29,778 bases of DNA from positions 1 through 29,778 of IMG/VR virus record IMGVR_UViG_3300005253_000643, one strand, 5' to 3'. The notes under the pieces are model-generated. The model worked only from the letters and a program-made list of their open reading frames with translations. It was not told the DNA's origin and did no database searches. Positions 7,517 through 14,808 of the stretch are shown in pieces (positions within the stretch are counted from its first letter, which is position 1; every line of letters starts with the position of its first letter). Origin of the DNA: a virus. Both the position numbers and the translations under genes were made by a program.

Positions 7517-8059
7517 CTAAAATCCTGTTAGAAACTTTCTGCCAAATTGTGTTTGGCTCATGCCTGTCGTAGCCTTAAATGTCCCGGCAGGGGCAACGGT
7601 TCCCTTTGCGCCTTTGAATAGGCCCGTACCGATTCCCAGAGTTGCAAGCTGCATACCAAACTGGACATTGGCCGCCCTTGCTGCACTCTTGCCCCTCTGT
7701 TGTGCGATCTTGCCTGCCAATCTGTCAAGTTCGGCCTGAGACTCAGCTTGACCCGCCAACACTTCACCCTCAAACCCTATCAGGAGATTTTCAAGTTCCA
7801 GTTCAGCAGCTTGTTCGGCAGCCAAGTCAAGAGCAACAGGAGAACCCACACCTCCGGCAGCGCCAAATTTCGCAGTCAAGGCGCTCTTTATTTCAGCAGC
7901 GCGCTTTGCCTGTCGCTTCTGGGCAAAGCCAGCCCTTGCTCTTAGGGCCTCTGCCTCCTGTAAGGCAACGGCAGCATTGAAATTGGCTATGTTCTGAGCA
8001 GATTTGCCCTCGGCCCGCAAACCCCCCGCGCCAGATAATGTCTCAAAGATTCCACTCAT
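7517..8059 (-). CDS. small internal virion protein (T7 gp14-like), 180 aa
   Basis: The sequence begins with a short glycine-rich segment, 'MSGIFETLSGAGGLRAEGKS'. A long Ala/Gln/Glu/Arg-rich helix (about residues 20-135) follows, and it ends in a glycine-rich, mildly hydrophobic stretch, 'LATLGIGTGLFKGAKG'. This composition and length match the gp14-type internal proteins of podophages, which form part of the ejected channel in the outer membrane. The start overlaps the stop of the GNAT gene as ATGA, indicating coupled translation. Family assignment is by composition and position, not by a diagnostic motif. Confidence 0.6.
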   Translation of the reverse strand: MSGIFETLSGAGGLRAEGKSAQNIANFNAAVALQEAEALRARAGFAQKRQAKRAAEIKSALTAKFGAAGGVGSPVALDLAAEQAAELELENLLIGFEGEVLAGQAESQAELDRLAGKIAQQRGKSAARAANVQFGMQLATLGIGTGLFKGAKGTVAPAGTFKATTGMSQTQFGRKFLTGF

Positions 8060-8487
8060 CGAATCGCCTTTGAATATAAATAAGCATCTCCTTTGTCCGG
8101 CCAGTACTGTTTCATTAAAGCCTCTCTTTTGAAACCAAGGGCTTCTATCATCGCTATAGCCCTTGAAAACTCCGTCCTTACGGCAGCTTCGGCCCGGTGA
8201 AGATTATTGATTTTGCTCAATTCTTCTATTTTCTCTCGTATAGCGTACAAGGCCCTGAGACCATGTATGCCTTCCTTTTTACAATCTGCGGTCAATATCA
8301 GCCAGAATGACCCTCGACCCGGCCAGAAGACTTGTACGCCGCCTACGGCGACGAGAGAACCCTCGTATACCACAGCATAAGTATTGCTGTCGGGAACCTC
8401 CGAATACAGGGTGTTCTTGACCGCACCCTCAAAAGGGTTCTCTCGCACATAGTCCAAATCTTCCTGTGTTGCAGCGCGGAAATTCAT
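8056..8487 (-). CDS. GNAT-fold acetyltransferase-like protein in T7 gp13 position
   Basis: The 143 residues show the GNAT order. An N-terminal 'MNFRAATQEDLDYV' strand-helix comes first, then central strands 'YAVVYEGSLVAVGGVQVF' (about 37-54). A helix follows in the region where acetyl-CoA binds (about 72-92, 'GIHGLRALYAIREKIEEL'), and then 'RAIAMIEALGFKREALMK' near the C-terminus, the usual GFxxE/R motif. In T7-like phages a protein of this fold (gp13) is encoded between the nozzle and internal proteins, as here. It may act in assembly rather than as an enzyme: the canonical Q/RxxGxG/A pyrophosphate loop is only partly recognisable. It overlaps both neighbours by 4 bases. Confidence 0.75.
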   Translation of the reverse strand: MNFRAATQEDLDYVRENPFEGAVKNTLYSEVPDSNTYAVVYEGSLVAVGGVQVFWPGRGSFWLILTADCKKEGIHGLRALYAIREKIEELSKINNLHRAEAAVRTEFSRAIAMIEALGFKREALMKQYWPDKGDAYLYSKAIR

Positions 8488-11400
8488 CTACCTGTCACCT
8501 CCATCCTCGGTATAATTGCTCGTACTATGCAAGGTAACGGATCAGCCTGTGATATAACAAGAGTATCTTCCGTATCAAAGCCACCGTCAAGGGCAACCGT
8601 AATAAGGCCACTAAACAAACCTTCAATCTCGCTGGCATTTTTCCATCTCGGATCATCCCAATCAAAACCATGCAACGACGTATCGGAAGTCCCGAATTTA
8701 GCATTTAACGTATTGTGAAAATTGAAAGATACTTCCGGTATTTTCTTGATACTGCCATGTGTTGTGCCTGTTGGTAAATTGATATCCAATCTCATTGGAA
8801 TCGCCTGCGAAAGATAAGGTATTCCGCCTCTTACGTTTCTTGCGGCAGTTGTAAGTTCTATCTGGCCCCCGATTACCCTTTGTCTTTCCAGCACTTCACC
8901 GTCCGCCAGAATTGCAATAACTTTGTTTTCGAGATGGGCGTACCCCGTAATCGTAGTTCTTAGTTCACCAATTTCGATAACGCCGCTGTCCACAAAAAAC
9001 GCATTTTCCTTCCTGATGTCAAGATGTCTCGATTGGAATTGTTCGATATAAACTTTGTTATCGCCGTCAACAGCCCGTACTATCGAAATCCAAATCTCAT
9101 CCTCTCCCGATGCAGGAATCACTGCAACGGATTGAACCAGACCGTCCATAGGATGTTTCGCCCATGCGATGACATTTTGTTCCCGTTCGTAACTCAATGT
9201 AATCAAGTCCCCGTTCTCAAGAACGCACCATAGCATCGAGTCGGGATTTTTCTGATGCGCCACACAGACTATCCCGGAAAACGTAATGTGTTCGGCAAGC
9301 GCAGTTAAGTCGGGAGCAACGTATTTCTGTTGGTTTTCACTGAACACAAATTCTCTTATTTTCCTGCCAACCGAATCTATGAACAGCAGCACCGAACCAA
9401 CTTCTACTACCTGTATATTAGTACTACCGTAAGCAGTCTGTTTCTTCATGTCCCAGTTTTTCGGAGTCAGGGCTTCGTCTAAAGGTGATTTTATTCTCCA
9501 TTCCAACCCCCCGTCACCGGCGGCAAGAGTACCAAGCGAACCTAACCACTTACCGCGATTAGCAGTTGGAAGAATCAGAGCAAACGAATCTGCATCATTT
9601 ATCCCGGCTTCAAAATCTTCAAATTTCCCCGTCTCACTTAACCAAATATCCTGCTGGTCTGAATTAGTAAATCCATAAACTACCCGCTCTTCGAAAAACG
9701 TGACCGCAGACGGATAACCCCTTTCCCTGGACCATGCTCCTTCCGCCCATCGTTTCGTATCGGTTGTTTGGCTGACTTTGGCAACTACAGTTATTTCGGC
9801 AGTTGTATCGGAAATGATACTGTTTATACGCACAATGCCTGATTGCGTACTCGACGTAGCTGCAAGGTCCGCCTCGACGGTTCCGCTTGTATAAGCAGTT
9901 ACGTTTATTCGATATTGAACATTATCCTCTTCCTCAATTGCGCCAAGTTGAACATTTCTATCTCCTACACCGTCATTTATTACCGATATATATTCCCTGT
10001 ACGGCTCCCAGCCTGCATTATCCTCGTTTCGTTCAACTGCAACGGTAGCGTCCCAGTTTCCATGTGTATTGAAATTGAAATCCCCTTTTATATCGAGCGG
10101 AACGCCAATCACCCCCACGGCAGTTGCGGAACCGCTAACGGAACTGGTGTTTATAGCAAGACTGGCAGCGATTGTTCCGGCTAAATGTACAACAACATTT
10201 ATACGATATTGAAACCCTGTCTCTGTTTCCGTAGCTTGAAATGTCGTCACGCCCGTACTAAGAAAAGTTTTTACACCGGTGCTTGTAACCCAACCGTCAT
10301 CGCTTTTCTGTAACCTTACTGTTCCTATCCATTCTTCTGTGGTAATAGAAAAAATGTAGTCTCCGATGACATCAATTTGCTCCCCTATTAAACCAGTCTC
10401 GGTTCCTTCCAGCCTGCCATTCATTTGCCGATTCACGCGCGGATGGGTAAGTTCGAACAATGCACCTACATGCCCTGGCTGGAATATGCCCGACGACCGG
10501 GTAAGTGTTCCTGCGGTCCCGGCAATAGTCGCGTCCACATTCATTACGACGTCATCATCTTCTGCGATATCGTTTCTTTCGATAAATGGACCTTTATCAA
10601 AAACAATATCCTCCACTATAAAGCTTGTAGTCGTCACCCTTTTCAACTGGGCCTGCGGATGCGAAGGATGCACCATCCACATAACATCCGCACTTTGTAT
10701 AGTCTGGAGTTGATATAACTCTGAGGATTCGTAATCAGTCGCTACTTCAACATGAACCTCTGCATCGCCTAATAGCGGGTCGCCATCAAAATAGAACCTG
10801 GCATATTTCTCGCCAAATTCTATAGGATACGCTATATCAGAAGAAAATATAAACGGCATCATCCTCACTACAGGAAGCGGAGCGAGTATATTGACTTGTT
10901 CTATCGACAAGGCCAGTGCAAAGGTGGAGATTACAACAGTTACGTCCTGTTCTATCGCCACGGAAACAGTACCAAGAGACAGAGATAGAGACAATACTGT
11001 CGGTTCAACAGTAACGTCTATGACAACGGAAGGAGCTTTCAGGGCAAGTGTGAGAGTTTGTACTGTCCCTTCATGTGTTTTGCCTATCGTGATAGTCGGT
11101 GCGTTCAATGTTAATGTCAAAGGCACGGCGGAAGCAAGTATCGTAGGACTGTCGTCAATATCAATAGAAGGAAGCAAGAGACTTAATGACAAAGCGAGTG
11201 CGTCCGGTTCCAGGGTCACAGGAACCTGGACTTGTTTGAAGGCGGCAACAGACATGGCCGAACCATGATTGCCGTTGTAAATACCGTTACCGTAAACGCC
11301 ACCGCCATAAACACCAGTCGTCCAGCTTGTTGCTATTGCACCGGCACTTGCCTGCAAAGTAAATTGGTTACTGTCGGAATATAACCCGTTATCAGTTCTG

Positions 11401-11879
11401 TTTAGATTCGTCCCTGATTGAGCAGTAGGGGCATAATCCTGGTCAGAACCTAATACTCCAACAATAACACCCCCGTCCACGGTAGTAGTAAGAGAAACTG
11501 ACGGGCTGGTTGACGAACCCAGAGAGCCCCCATCAACATCCAAGGCACTTGTAAAGCCAGTATTAACGTTATAGCTTGACACTTGAACGTGAAGAGGGAG
11601 AGATAGCGGATTCTGCACGCTGATTTCAAGCGCAGAGCCCGTGGGAGGCTCTGTCATATACCATAGTTCACAACCCACCTGTGGTATAATGACACGAACA
11701 AAATCAGCAAGAGTTAGTTCTACGCCATCATAGGTTGGAGCAACACCGAACCGATTACCTGCGGGGCCTGTGACTATACCTACAACCAGAAGTGTTGCTC
11801 TGCTTCCACAAGTATAATCACTCGTTAACGGATTCGTAGCCCCAACAAACCGTAAATTGTTATCAAATTTATGTGCCAA
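8484..11879 (-). CDS. adhesin-like N-terminus fused to tail nozzle (gp12-like) protein lacking its own N-terminus
   Basis: Residues 1-338 are a beta-rich region: a sandwich-like part (about 1-215), then five imperfect repeats of the type 'LSLSLLLPSIDI', 'LTLTLNAPTITI', 'LTLALKAPSVVI' (about 220-335). From 339 the protein switches to the podophage nozzle/tail tubular B family: 'RMMPFIFSSDIAYPIEFG', then 'ARFYFDG', 'DVMWMVHPSHPQAQL' (about 398-412), 'YPSAVTFFEERVVYGF' (722-737) and 'DIWLSETGKFEDF' (744-756). Two tandem beta repeats of about 97 aa lie at 491-683. The family normally starts with the sequence now encoded at 13,039-13,221. The start is TTG, directly after an in-frame TGA and 8 bases after an AAGGG motif; no ATG occurs until residue 75. 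Confidence 0.8.
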   Translation of the reverse strand: MAHKFDNNLRFVGATNPLTSDYTCGSRATLLVVGIVTGPAGNRFGVAPTYDGVELTLADFVRVIIPQVGCELWYMTEPPTGSALEISVQNPLSLPLHVQVSSYNVNTGFTSALDVDGGSLGSSTSPSVSLTTTVDGGVIVGVLGSDQDYAPTAQSGTNLNRTDNGLYSDSNQFTLQASAGAIATSWTTGVYGGGVYGNGIYNGNHGSAMSVAAFKQVQVPVTLEPDALALSLSLLLPSIDIDDSPTILASAVPLTLTLNAPTITIGKTHEGTVQTLTLALKAPSVVIDVTVEPTVLSLSLSLGTVSVAIEQDVTVVISTFALALSIEQVNILAPLPVVRMMPFIFSSDIAYPIEFGEKYARFYFDGDPLLGDAEVHVEVATDYESSELYQLQTIQSADVMWMVHPSHPQAQLKRVTTTSFIVEDIVFDKGPFIERNDIAEDDDVVMNVDATIAGTAGTLTRSSGIFQPGHVGALFELTHPRVNRQMNGRLEGTETGLIGEQIDVIGDYIFSITTEEWIGTVRLQKSDDGWVTSTGVKTFLSTGVTTFQATETETGFQYRINVVVHLAGTIAASLAINTSSVSGSATAVGVIGVPLDIKGDFNFNTHGNWDATVAVERNEDNAGWEPYREYISVINDGVGDRNVQLGAIEEEDNVQYRINVTAYTSGTVEADLAATSSTQSGIVRINSIISDTTAEITVVAKVSQTTDTKRWAEGAWSRERGYPSAVTFFEERVVYGFTNSDQQDIWLSETGKFEDFEAGINDADSFALILPTANRGKWLGSLGTLAAGDGGLEWRIKSPLDEALTPKNWDMKKQTAYGSTNIQVVEVGSVLLFIDSVGRKIREFVFSENQQKYVAPDLTALAEHITFSGIVCVAHQKNPDSMLWCVLENGDLITLSYEREQNVIAWAKHPMDGLVQSVAVIPASGEDEIWISIVRAVDGDNKVYIEQFQSRHLDIRKENAFFVDSGVIEIGELRTTITGYAHLENKVIAILADGEVLERQRVIGGQIELTTAARNVRGGIPYLSQAIPMRLDINLPTGTTHGSIKKIPEVSFNFHNTLNAKFGTSDTSLHGFDWDDPRWKNASEIEGLFSGLITVALDGGFDTEDTLVISQADPLPCIVRAIIPRMEVTGR

Positions 11880-11919
11880 TCAGATACCCTTGTTTTAGTC
11901 CGGAGTTGCATTTAGCAAC

Positions 11920-12465
11920 CTATGCTTTTATGTACGAAAGCACCTTGAATGTAAATTGGGGCGTAGTGTCATTGCAAGCCATCTTGAATTTGCCTGCGGA
12001 ATTAACTGTAAGAGTTAAGAGCGTGCCCGGGGTAGTATTTGAGTTTACGAACCATACTGAAGAACTGGTCATGTCTACACTTCCCACTATAGCTGTAAAA
12101 GATAACGATTCGTCCCCACCTTGAAAAGCCGCGTTCCATACATTATCTCCACCCGTTACTGTAACCCACATTGAAATAAGGGCGGCATTTGACCCAACAA
12201 TACTGCTCATATCAACCAATTCAAAAATGCTGCCGGAACCAACCGCGCCATGAGCAATGCTTGAGCCGGGAAATGCTACAGTTGCTTTAGTATCCACATA
12301 AGCCTTGTCCGCTACCGTCCTGTCACTATCGCCGGATTGTGTTGCAGCTTCCAATACAGCGCCGTCTTTTATTTTACCGTCAGAAGCCAATGATACTTCC
12401 AGATGCGCATTTAACTCAGTACCCCATGTTCCATCGGAACCGCCTGGTGTTGGTCTCGTAGCCAT
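11920..12465 (-). CDS. fibre-like virion protein inside the nozzle cassette, 181 aa
   Basis: The N-terminus 'GGSDGTWGTELNAHLEVSL' (about 8-26) is a motif seen at the start of many phage fibre-like proteins. It is followed by 'DGKIKDGAV' and 'RTVADKAYVDTKA' (about 49-61), the latter typical of fibre proteins with a 'KAYVD' repeat. The remainder (about 70-181) is Ser/Thr/Val-rich with aromatic strands, a probable beta-sandwich. The start follows AGGAG with the shared TAAATCATGGCT context. It ends with TAG, 40 bases before the TTG start of the fused nozzle gene. Probably a small tail-spike or fibre component; the partner is unknown. Confidence 0.65.
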   Translation of the reverse strand: MATRPTPGGSDGTWGTELNAHLEVSLASDGKIKDGAVLEAATQSGDSDRTVADKAYVDTKATVAFPGSSIAHGAVGSGSIFELVDMSSIVGSNAALISMWVTVTGGDNVWNAAFQGGDESLSFTAIVGSVDMTSSSVWFVNSNTTPGTLLTLTVNSAGKFKMACNDTTPQFTFKVLSYIKA

Positions 12466-12475
12466 GATTTATCTC

Positions 12476-12886
12476 CTACCCTGCAAGGGTTATAATGCCA
12501 TCGGCATCCCACTGTATCGTGAACGTACCCGCCACAACTGCCTTTGCACCGCCGAAATCTATAGAAGCAATAAGATTATCGGTTACTGAAGTGTCATATA
12601 TCACAGCATGATACGCCGTGAAAGTTGCGGTTGTCCAATCCCTGTTAGCCGCGTCCCATTTGGTTGTTACTGCTTGCGTAACGGCCTTACTTGCCAGTGT
12701 GTTGCCACCCGTAGTATAACCACTGCCAGACGACAATTCATTAGCAGACACGTCACCTAAAACGTCATTGCCTGCCGTAAAAGTGTGGCTGTTGTCAAGC
12801 AATATCACCTTGATAACGTCCGCTTCTAAATCGACTTCCTTATTCATTAAATTTGCTTTGAATCTGTTGTAAATACCTGAAGCCAT
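12476..12886 (-). CDS. conserved phage virion protein of the 'IYNRFKANLMNKEVDL' type, 136 aa
   Basis: The N-terminus (IYNRFKANLMNKEVDL), 'VIKVILLDNSHTF' (about 24-36), 'NELSSGSGYTTGGNTL' (about 49-64) and 'TAYHAVIYDTSVTDNLIA' (about 90-107) match a small protein found repeatedly in phage structural modules. Its exact function is not established to my knowledge. The usual setting is among head, tail-tip or fibre genes. Here it lies inside the cassette that splits the nozzle gene. The start has an AAAGGA leader followed by TAAATCATGGCT, and the stop is 10 bases before the next start. Confidence 0.65.
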   Translation of the reverse strand: MASGIYNRFKANLMNKEVDLEADVIKVILLDNSHTFTAGNDVLGDVSANELSSGSGYTTGGNTLASKAVTQAVTTKWDAANRDWTTATFTAYHAVIYDTSVTDNLIASIDFGGAKAVVAGTFTIQWDADGIITLAG

Positions 12887-12889
12887 GAT

Positions 12890-13039
12890 TTATCCTTTCT
12901 CGTTTTTTGCTGTAATTTGTAAACACGGAACATGCACTATCACATCTATCCGCCCGTCAGGATGACGAATTTCCTCTGCTGTCGCTTTGATAACGCCATC
13001 CTGTACTTCAACTAATTTATCACCTATTCGTACTTTCAT
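12890..13039 (-). CDS. hypothetical 49-aa protein between nozzle N-fragment and cassette genes
   Basis: The start ATG overlaps the stop of the nozzle N-terminal fragment (TAATG), so translation is probably coupled. The product begins 'MKVRIGDKLVEVQDGVIKA' and continues with 'EIRHPDGRIDVIVHVP'. This is an alternating pattern of short beta strands, with no membrane segment or recognised motif. It ends with TAA, 3 bases before the next ATG. It is the first gene of the inserted cassette. The tight packing at both ends supports it as a real gene; no function can be given. Confidence 0.6.
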   Translation of the reverse strand: MKVRIGDKLVEVQDGVIKATAEEIRHPDGRIDVIVHVPCLQITAKNEKG

Positions 13040-13221
13040 TATGAATCCTTCGCTATTTTTACAAATTTAGTACCCGGTCTTCGTTCGATTACACCGTATA
13101 TTCTCGGAAAGAAGTTCTCCAGTTTACGACACCCGGACTTGAATTTTTCAATATCCGACCGTGCATCGATAAGAGGAGTATACTCCCCGCCGTTCAAGTT
13201 TATTACGGGTATATTTGCCAT
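13039..13221 (-). CDS. detached N-terminal fragment of the tail nozzle protein, 60 aa
   Basis: The whole 60-aa product matches the first 60 residues of the podophage nozzle/tail tubular family: 'NLNGGEYTPLIDARSDIEKF' (about 8-27), 'SGCRKLENFFPRIYGVIERR' (about 29-48) and 'PGTKFVKIAKDS' at the end. In the family the chain continues into R-x-x-P-F-x-F-S, found here only at residue 339 of the 1131-aa protein. The gene starts one base after the upstream stop and ends in a TAATG overlap, so it is placed as an ordinary translated gene. It may reassemble with the larger part in the virion, or be a relic. The similarity is clear; function as a separate chain is inference. Confidence 0.75.
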   Translation of the reverse strand: MANIPVINLNGGEYTPLIDARSDIEKFKSGCRKLENFFPRIYGVIERRPGTKFVKIAKDS

Positions 13222-13584
13222 TTATTTATCGTAAACATTAAGCACTTGACTTTTCTGAGCGGACAATACATCCATCTGGTCGGACAGACTTTCCAATGTA
13301 TCACCATCGCCGCCGATAAGCGTATCTGTAAAGTCCGCACCTTCAATAAGAACAGCATCTACCTCACTTCGGTATTCACCGAAACCAACTTTATTCGTCC
13401 CGTCATCGACTACCACTACATCACCGGCAACCAACGCCGTCGACGGAGTAGCCGTGTAATAACCAGTTACACCTATTTCCGGCAGGCTTTGGTCAGCCGC
13501 ACCTCTTGCACTGCCGTCCGGCTGCAACGCCGTAAATGTCAGGGTCTTACCTGTAAGGAAGCCGAATTTAACTTCGTTAGCCAT
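13222..13584 (-). CDS. conserved virion protein between gp11-like and nozzle genes, 120 aa
   Basis: The ATG at 13,584 is chosen over the GTG one codon upstream because it overlaps the upstream TGA (TGATG) and lies 7 bases after AGGAAG. The product begins '[17 protein letters not shown]' and contains '[20 protein letters not shown]' (about 36-55), an Ig-like or baseplate-upper-protein-like beta pattern common in phages. The last 30 residues ('[16 protein letters not shown]') form a short helix. It sits between the tail adaptor and the nozzle fragment, so a tail or fibre-attachment role is likely. The family's function is not known to me. Confidence 0.65.
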
Positions 13585-14216
13585 CACGCACTTCCTAAAC
13601 GAGAGTCAATCCTGCCGCCGCGAGTAACTCTTACATCGGTCCACGTAAACTGGTCGGCTCGACCCTTACCCCTTGTCTCTTGCCTGTCTAATACACGAAC
13701 TGAGGGCATAAGCAATTTCAAATCATCTTTAAGACTTTCTCTTATTTTTGGTGTTGCACCGGCAAGGGATGTAAGTTTCAATGCCAACTGCAAAACAAGC
13801 ACTTCAATAAATAACGGATCAAATTCGCTAACATCAGTGACTTTTTTAGTGTACCGAAGGTCTACAGATGAATCGTTAGTAAGAAACGTTAATCCTTCAA
13901 TCGCATAGGAATGTCGCGTGTTATCAACTAAAGTATTATCATAAACAGACCTGAATGCAAGAAAATCCGTCGGCAACGTAAAAGCATTGCCCCATTCAAA
14001 ATCAGGGTCGGTAGTTGCTGTTAATTGCGATCTTGCCGCAGCGAACCGCCAGAAATGAGAACGCTCTAAAGCGTCTCTTGTCTGCTCGTAATGCAATCTG
14101 CACTGGACGCCTTCTACTGAATTGTCAGTTTCTACATTACCTATCTTATTAGCACCCAGTTTGGCAAGGCTCATCTTGCAAATAGATGTTTCTGATAATG
14201 TCTCAGATAGTGCCAT
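13584..14216 (-). CDS. tail adaptor (T7 gp11-like tail tubular protein A), 210 aa
   Basis: The protein shows the gp11/adaptor pattern: '[20 protein letters not shown]' (about 11-30), '[20 protein letters not shown]' (about 38-57), '[14 protein letters not shown]' (about 81-94), and a C-terminal '[20 protein letters not shown]' helix (about 136-155). Proteins of this family form the dodecameric ring between portal and nozzle and complete the head-tail interface. The length of 210 aa is close to that of T7 gp11. The stop overlaps the next start as TGATG. The synteny of portal, capsid, adaptor and nozzle supports the call. Confidence 0.85.
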
Positions 14217-14229
14217 TACGCCTCCTTAA

Positions 14230-14808
14230 TTATACACCGTATCTGCCCCGTGTCACTTCGTAAATGCTTTTCATATCAGCAGCAGACAGAACTCTGTCAA
14301 ATAGCATGACATCACCTATTTTGCCGGTAAACAGGCCCAGGCCTTCTACCCTGCCTATATCGAGGTCGCTTGCAGTTTCGGCAGCTCCAATAGTTAATCC
14401 AACCAAATGCCAGGTATCGTTAGTTACCGCAACTGCCTCAACGCCATCTACATAAATCTTCGACGCCGCAAATCCCGAAGGGTCCACTTCCGCACCATCA
14501 ATCGTGATATAACCAGTTCCGTTAAGATCGATTAGGTAACTGACAAGCGTTACGTTGGGACTCAACATCCATAACCCAATAGTTTTAATCGCGCCGCCTT
14601 GATTGCCCACGTCGATAAAATCATCGGTCCCGTTAAATGAAAAGCCCGGATACGTCGGGGCTATATCAGTTCCTGTGACCGTGCCGGTTGCTCCGCCGAG
14701 ACTGTAATCGAATACTTCACCTGCCGTTGTCAATCCGGCCCAGAGTTTATAGTGAGCAACTAAACCGACAGTATTTACCTGTGGCACTAACAATTCCGGT
14801 TTTATCAT
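14230..14808 (-). CDS. LamG/concanavalin-like virion protein, 192 aa
   Basis: The sequence follows the LamG jelly-roll order: 'GLVAHYKLWAG' (about 15-25), 'YPGFSFNGTDDFIDVGN' (about 53-69), 'KTIGLWML' (about 74-81), 'SKIYVDGVEAVAVTNDTWHL' (about 116-135) and 'TGKIGDVMLFDRVLSAADMK' (about 160-179). The closing 'GxIxDVxxFDRxLSxxDxxxIY' motif is especially typical. Such domains bind glycans or act as decoration domains. The gene overlaps the previous one by 4 bases (ATGA) and precedes the tail adaptor. A second, only distantly similar LamG-like gene lies at the left edge of the window. Confidence 0.8.
   Translation of the reverse strand: MIKPELLVPQVNTVGLVAHYKLWAGLTTAGEVFDYSLGGATGTVTGTDIAPTYPGFSFNGTDDFIDVGNQGGAIKTIGLWMLSPNVTLVSYLIDLNGTGYITIDGAEVDPSGFAASKIYVDGVEAVAVTNDTWHLVGLTIGAAETASDLDIGRVEGLGLFTGKIGDVMLFDRVLSAADMKSIYEVTRGRYGV

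Follow-up and report, generated by a model that had tools for sequence, protein, structure and literature searches.

Short-tailed phages have the nozzle as their DNA gate, elsewhere a single conserved chain. In phage T7, the N-terminal 45 residues of the nozzle protein gp12 contribute three strands to the platform barrel, and the fibre is located between the docks of adaptor and nozzle (PMC6702177). The nozzle of phage SU10 comprises extra domains between the propeller blades as well as a fibre dock (PMC9509320). For Vibrio phage OWB, the tail tubular proteins A and B (adaptor and nozzle) were described as able to bind a host receptor (PMC7241545). The split reported in PMC9915841 concerns a tailspike, not a nozzle. 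In the searchable literature no precedent for a split nozzle was found, which agrees with the original prediction, where no described phage tail with the arrangement analysed here was known.

Two separate reading frames for one nozzle

The window, i.e. the whole stretch of 29,778 nucleotides that was analysed, comprises positions 1-29,778 of the incomplete IMG/VR record IMGVR_UViG_3300005253_000643 of an uncultivated phage. The nozzle locus contains the following features, all on the minus strand:

13,584-14,216 (-): g210, upstream tail protein, probable adaptor (PHROG 394)
13,222-13,587 (-): g121, between adaptor and nozzle; position shared with intact relatives
13,039-13,221 (-): N60, nozzle N-terminal chain, 60 aa (PHROG 376 positions 5-61)
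12,890-13,039 (-): g49, small conserved cassette gene, 49 aa; in all window-type relatives
12,476-12,886 (-): g136, cassette gene, 136 aa (PHROG 644, unknown function)
11,920-12,465 (-): g181, small tail-fibre-like protein, 181 aa; conserved first ~60 aa
8,484-11,879 (-): large chain, 1131-aa ORF, TTG start
11,202-11,879 (-): large chain residues 1-226, putative adhesin domain; in frame with the core, kept in relatives
10,869-11,201 (-): large chain residues ~227-337, repeats (LSLSL..PS), stalk or linker by sequence and alignment
8,484-10,868 (-): large chain residues 338-1131, nozzle core with propeller, tip and C-terminal platform (PHROG 376 positions 66-711)
8,056-8,487 (-): g143, GNAT-like gene by profile matches, directly downstream of the nozzle core

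N60 starts with ATG, ends with KDS-TAA and matches the tail protein family PHROG 376 at profile positions 5-61 (E 3e-15), while residues 338-1130 of the large chain match positions 66-711 (E 7e-153). The two products therefore cover complementary, non-overlapping stretches of one nozzle profile. The 1131-aa ORF reads ...APLPVVRMMPFIFSSDIAYPIEFG; hence R-M-M-P-F begins at residue 339, and the end of N60 lies ~2.17 kb from codon 338 of the large chain. Accordingly, the original prediction correctly described the 60-aa product as the start of the nozzle family ending at K-D-S, the resumption of the missing residues at residue 339, and the intervening three small genes (49, 136 and 181 aa) and 338 fused codons. 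The contiguity of residues 1-60 and 339 onward in intact members, which it presupposed, was found in PHROG 376, in the solved nozzle of Cobetia phage Carin1 (PDB 8ck1), where N60 aligns to residues 17-62 and the large chain to residues 72-828 of one chain, and in dozens of intact relatives, which carry N60 and core at constant spacing within a single ORF. No second nozzle copy was present in the window record, where only N60 and the large chain were found, and two close relatives (records of 45.6 kb and 45.1 kb) likewise contained no nozzle sequence beyond the two pieces. Membership of the nozzle family is clear from the whole-profile match, the nozzle fold and the position in the structural operon, behind the adaptor gene. 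The adaptor gene g210 is a neighbour kept in both split and intact relatives. Upstream of it, at 14,230-14,808, lies a gene for a LamG/concanavalin-like protein, kin to a virion structural PHROG and kept in several relatives; in the relative L022 (4475-5043), the adaptor gene matched in two overlapping frames, pointing to a frameshift or a further split.

Each part has its own start, as had been predicted. The ATG of N60 abuts the stop of g121 (TAAATG), the start of g49 overlaps the stop of N60 (TAATGA), and g136 and g181 have good ribosome sites. The large gene begins with TTG shortly behind an in-frame TGA and is preceded by AAGGG; its start in relatives frequently abuts the stop. In L006 (9989-10010), the large chain has no ATG, GTG or TTG ahead of the conserved AHTFDNN, and its start is perhaps ATT, ATC or ATA.

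Introns within structural genes occur in phages, so that a break bridged after transcription by an intron, an intein, or frameshifting or readthrough, with a mature nozzle of one chain, has to be considered. Readthrough is conceivable for L121, L122 and L150, where the second break consists of a single in-frame stop followed by ATG. Against such bridging, no Rfam intron was found in the window at the gathering threshold, N60 terminates only a few residues from the break and carries no intein half, and the junction PLPVVRMM of the large chain is, on inspection, unlike an intein end. Since conserved genes together with 338 in-frame codons fill the intervening 2.2 kb and relatives show clean breaks with own starts, splicing, which the original prediction had wanted excluded, is very unlikely, and bridging as a whole is highly improbable.

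The AlphaFold2 (AF2) model of the intact relative L030 (pLDDT 85.5, pTM 0.81) showed TM-scores of 0.70/0.73 to Carin1 and ~0.52/0.56 to T7 gp12. The break site maps to a loop at residues 57-64 of this model, between the strands 51-56 and 65-70. In the AF2 model of the window's large chain, the nozzle fold begins at ~residue 335 and matches the Carin1 and T7 nozzles; the first 17 PDB matches were all podophage tails. The break thus parts the last strand of N60 from the first strand of the core at their connecting turn, which leaves the core with a free N-terminus, presumably at the surface. The proposal of a head-proximal N-terminus was amended: by analogy with T7 gp12, the platform barrel, which touches the adaptor, would receive strands from N60.

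Conservation in window-type relatives and the cassette genes

A search of metagenomic phages, as had been proposed, identified the same arrangement in 11 further IMG/VR records (L002-L008, L012, L014, L020, L022), which came from scans with the large protein and with N60. In every window-type record two separate ORFs were found. Because other records show this break with these same genes (large protein 62-91% identical), it is no product of chance or of an assembly slip; the original claim that it is not random thus holds. N60, g49 and g136 are present in 11/11 relatives. The fused large gene is present, whole or partial, in all except L008 and L012, whose contigs end inside the cassette; with L014, which contains only its N-terminal part, 3/11 relatives end before the core. 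The eight window-type rows of a 63-core tree group as a single clade with a support of 100/100. A gene for an HNH endonuclease lies inside the nozzle cassette only in L004 (8715-9215), a possible clue to how the cassette entered or spread.

The identity of N60 was 74-90%, with 34/61 invariant columns among seven records. For the window compared to L002, dN/dS was 0.12 for N60, 0.11 for the core and 0.31 for the adhesin part. Judged from these sequence comparisons, N60 is under purifying selection, and selection on the adhesin part is looser than on the core in this pair.

Residues 1-226 of the large chain are kept among relatives, with no significant match in Pfam or PDB. The 338-aa N-terminal part had no match among 50,697 phage records, and its AF2 model (pLDDT <50) gave no fold; one of eight members of the adhesin domain matches a minor tail protein PHROG. 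We infer an adhesin function for residues 1-338. Among the cassette genes, g136 matched PHROG 644 (E 2.5e-25) with an identity of 68-96% in relatives and no significant match in a PDB search. For g49, no significant PHROG, Pfam or NCBIfam match was obtained; the NCBIfam search returned nothing. The first ~60 residues of g181 are conserved (PTPGGSDGTWGTELN), whereas the C-termini are unrelated between relatives; in the counterpart of L005 the C-terminus matches PHROG tail-fibre families. Constant first 60 residues followed by a varying remainder would resemble exchangeable fibre tips.

Recurrent break sites and the empty tailspike slot

A wider set of records was obtained by a profile search with the window and intact relatives, and four nozzle segments were mapped by HMM onto all ORFs. 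Three recurrent break sites were observed on the nozzle profile. S1, the site of the window (profile ~62-66), is also broken in 13 records with other inserts or none (L016, L099, L118, L121, L122, L129, L130, L131, L132, L138, L149, L155, L165). S2 (profile ~312) lies ahead of the motif W-L-S-x-T-G-D-Y and is broken alone in L045, L141, L147, L148 and L150; S1 and S2 together result in five three-chain nozzles (L099, L121, L122, L149, L165). S3 (profile ~567) lies past the propeller and is broken in L041, L044, L143 and L152, so that nine records are broken at S2 or S3 only. Because the breaks in L141, L099 and L165 are insert-free and each could be a one-base indel, these records were given little weight. 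L158, whose ORFs overlap, was excluded as an apparent frameshift. In-frame enlarged nozzles with no chain break were observed in L038, L145, L151, L161, L163 and L172; they offer a contrast for asking why other nozzles are cut.

In L041, L044 and L143, the downstream chain has an adhesin-like domain at its start, together with a long Ser/Pro stalk. The same Ser/Pro repeats stand at the end of the upstream chain in L041 and L044, a sequence pattern that would fit the later cutting of an insert once in frame. Six records (L016, L130, L131, L132, L138, L155) contain two copies of N60; in most of them at least one copy extends into a long domain, of GLUG type or another, or into C/Y-E-N repeats, and several copies are fused to putative adhesins. 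C/Y-E-N repeats, found after N60 modules in L016 (4998-5414), L131 (4100-4414) and L132 (5172-5582), resemble those with which some tailspikes of intact relatives end at the C-terminus. In the records with duplicated N60 the core has its own ATG (MIRMIPF, MTTRLIPF, MATRMVPF, MTRMVPF) just before the R-x-x-P-F strand, and in L016, L131, L132, L138 and L155 it carries no N-terminal domain that might take over from N60.

This bears on whether N60 is a decaying remnant, with the large chain alone forming the nozzle and its new N-terminal domain replacing the lost strands. In favour of this reading, the core chain even without N60 is long and shows good conservation, and the new domain is beta-rich. 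Nonetheless, N60 was found in every S1-broken record whose sequence includes the region upstream of the core, it is under strong purifying selection and duplicated in six records, and the five cores just named have no substitute domain. Altogether, a remnant appears improbable.

In the tree of 63 cores the split label changes six times, at least four of them on well supported branches, and the break-site state changes twelve times. An earlier tree of 34 rows placed all split rows together (86/91), unlike the 63-core tree, so that the deepest order is tentative. A scan of genome contigs yielded only four distant relatives, among them L099 on a contig that had been assigned to a Phycisphaerae MAG. 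Nozzle gene fragmentation, accompanied by putative domain display, is real, conserved and recurrent. The predicted two-chain nozzle is supported, although it is not peculiar to this phage: it represents one of the forms found in a diverse lineage whose nozzles break at three sites.

In intact relatives, the gene that follows within ~45 bp of the nozzle stop encodes a beta-helix and a gp17-like adaptor domain, and it sits between the nozzle and the counterpart of g143. In split genomes with an insert, this tailspike gene is absent. A search with PF03906 gave no match anywhere; since it stayed blank even in genomes with a gp17-like spike, it was uninformative and was replaced by an own tailspike-adaptor profile built from intact relatives. 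This profile matched 9/9 intact records and 0/12 split records, all searched whole. A clade of 54 rows comprised 28 split records with no spike, 1 split with spike, 22 intact with spike and 3 intact with no spike, where most records are fragments and the counts cover the recovered sequence. The only split record with a spike was L141 with its insert-free break, and the three intact ones with no spike (L142, L151, L156) have enlarged nozzles. L038 and L145 have an enlarged in-frame nozzle yet keep the spike. Weak spike matches (26 bits) inside the nozzles of L156 and L157 were disregarded. Since the tree implies only about two changes of spike state, the pattern is not statistically independent evidence, and an independent-pairs test of split versus tailspike was not significant. 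The pattern fits a replacement of the spike by a nozzle-borne domain in few independent events.

The nozzle could also consist of two chains with residues 1-338 and the small genes being structural decoration or assembly parts, and with the host bound by another fibre. No characterised adhesin matches the domain significantly, g136 belongs to a family of unknown function, and the window record is incomplete. The tailspike slot behind the nozzle is empty, however, and at related break sites there are fibre-like small genes as well as inserts of clearly modular make-up, with GLUG repeats and Ser/Pro stalks, which makes mere decoration rather unlikely.

Proposed assembly and comparison with known systems

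The best explanation, to which we assign a probability of roughly 0.68, is a two-chain nozzle in which N60 provides platform strands and the large chain displays an adhesin replacing the tailspike. The nozzle of gp12/PHROG 376 type would be made as two polypeptides from one operon, where coupled translation may keep the chain amounts matched. N60 would dock non-covalently on the core chain and, by strand addition as suggested by T7 gp12, complete the platform of each of six subunits beneath the adaptor. At the junction of platform and propeller, the core's new N-terminus would emerge from the nozzle and carry the repeat stalk and the adhesin-like domain of ~220 residues, with the small fibre-like genes sharing the cassette. 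Receptor binding, performed in sister phages by a separate tailspike, would thereby have moved into the nozzle. For the whole lineage the odds appear even that nozzles of two or three chains are cut at fixed surface turns, that the cuts and the detachable N60 module serve as exchangeable docking points for adhesins, and that receptor recognition is wired into the DNA gate with no tailspike needed.

A gate bearing an adhesin would be a shortcut from receptor contact to gate, whose signal would be directly testable. The recurrent breaks reveal nozzle turns that tolerate cutting and display, and they show how phages can shift receptor binding between proteins. Annotation pipelines will miss or mislabel split nozzles.

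Compared to known systems, the Carin1 nozzle is similar in sequence (E 2.5e-75) and, via L030, in fold, but it is a single chain with no insert in the turn between N60 and core, and its solved assembly includes tail fibres. T7 gp12 shares the domain order of N-terminal platform strands, propeller, tip and C-terminal platform, whereas its nozzle is one chain and the gp17 fibres, docked between adaptor and nozzle, bind the receptor (PMC6702177). In SU10, the additional domains are in-frame within one chain, and long and short fibres are separate (PMC9509320). For OWB, neither a split gene nor an added adhesin domain is described (PMC7241545). The intact sister phages (L024-L046, L116, L120, L127, L128, L139) share the flanking gene order and the core (38-46% identical), but encode the nozzle in a single ORF with a beta-helix tailspike carrying a gp17-like adaptor immediately behind it.
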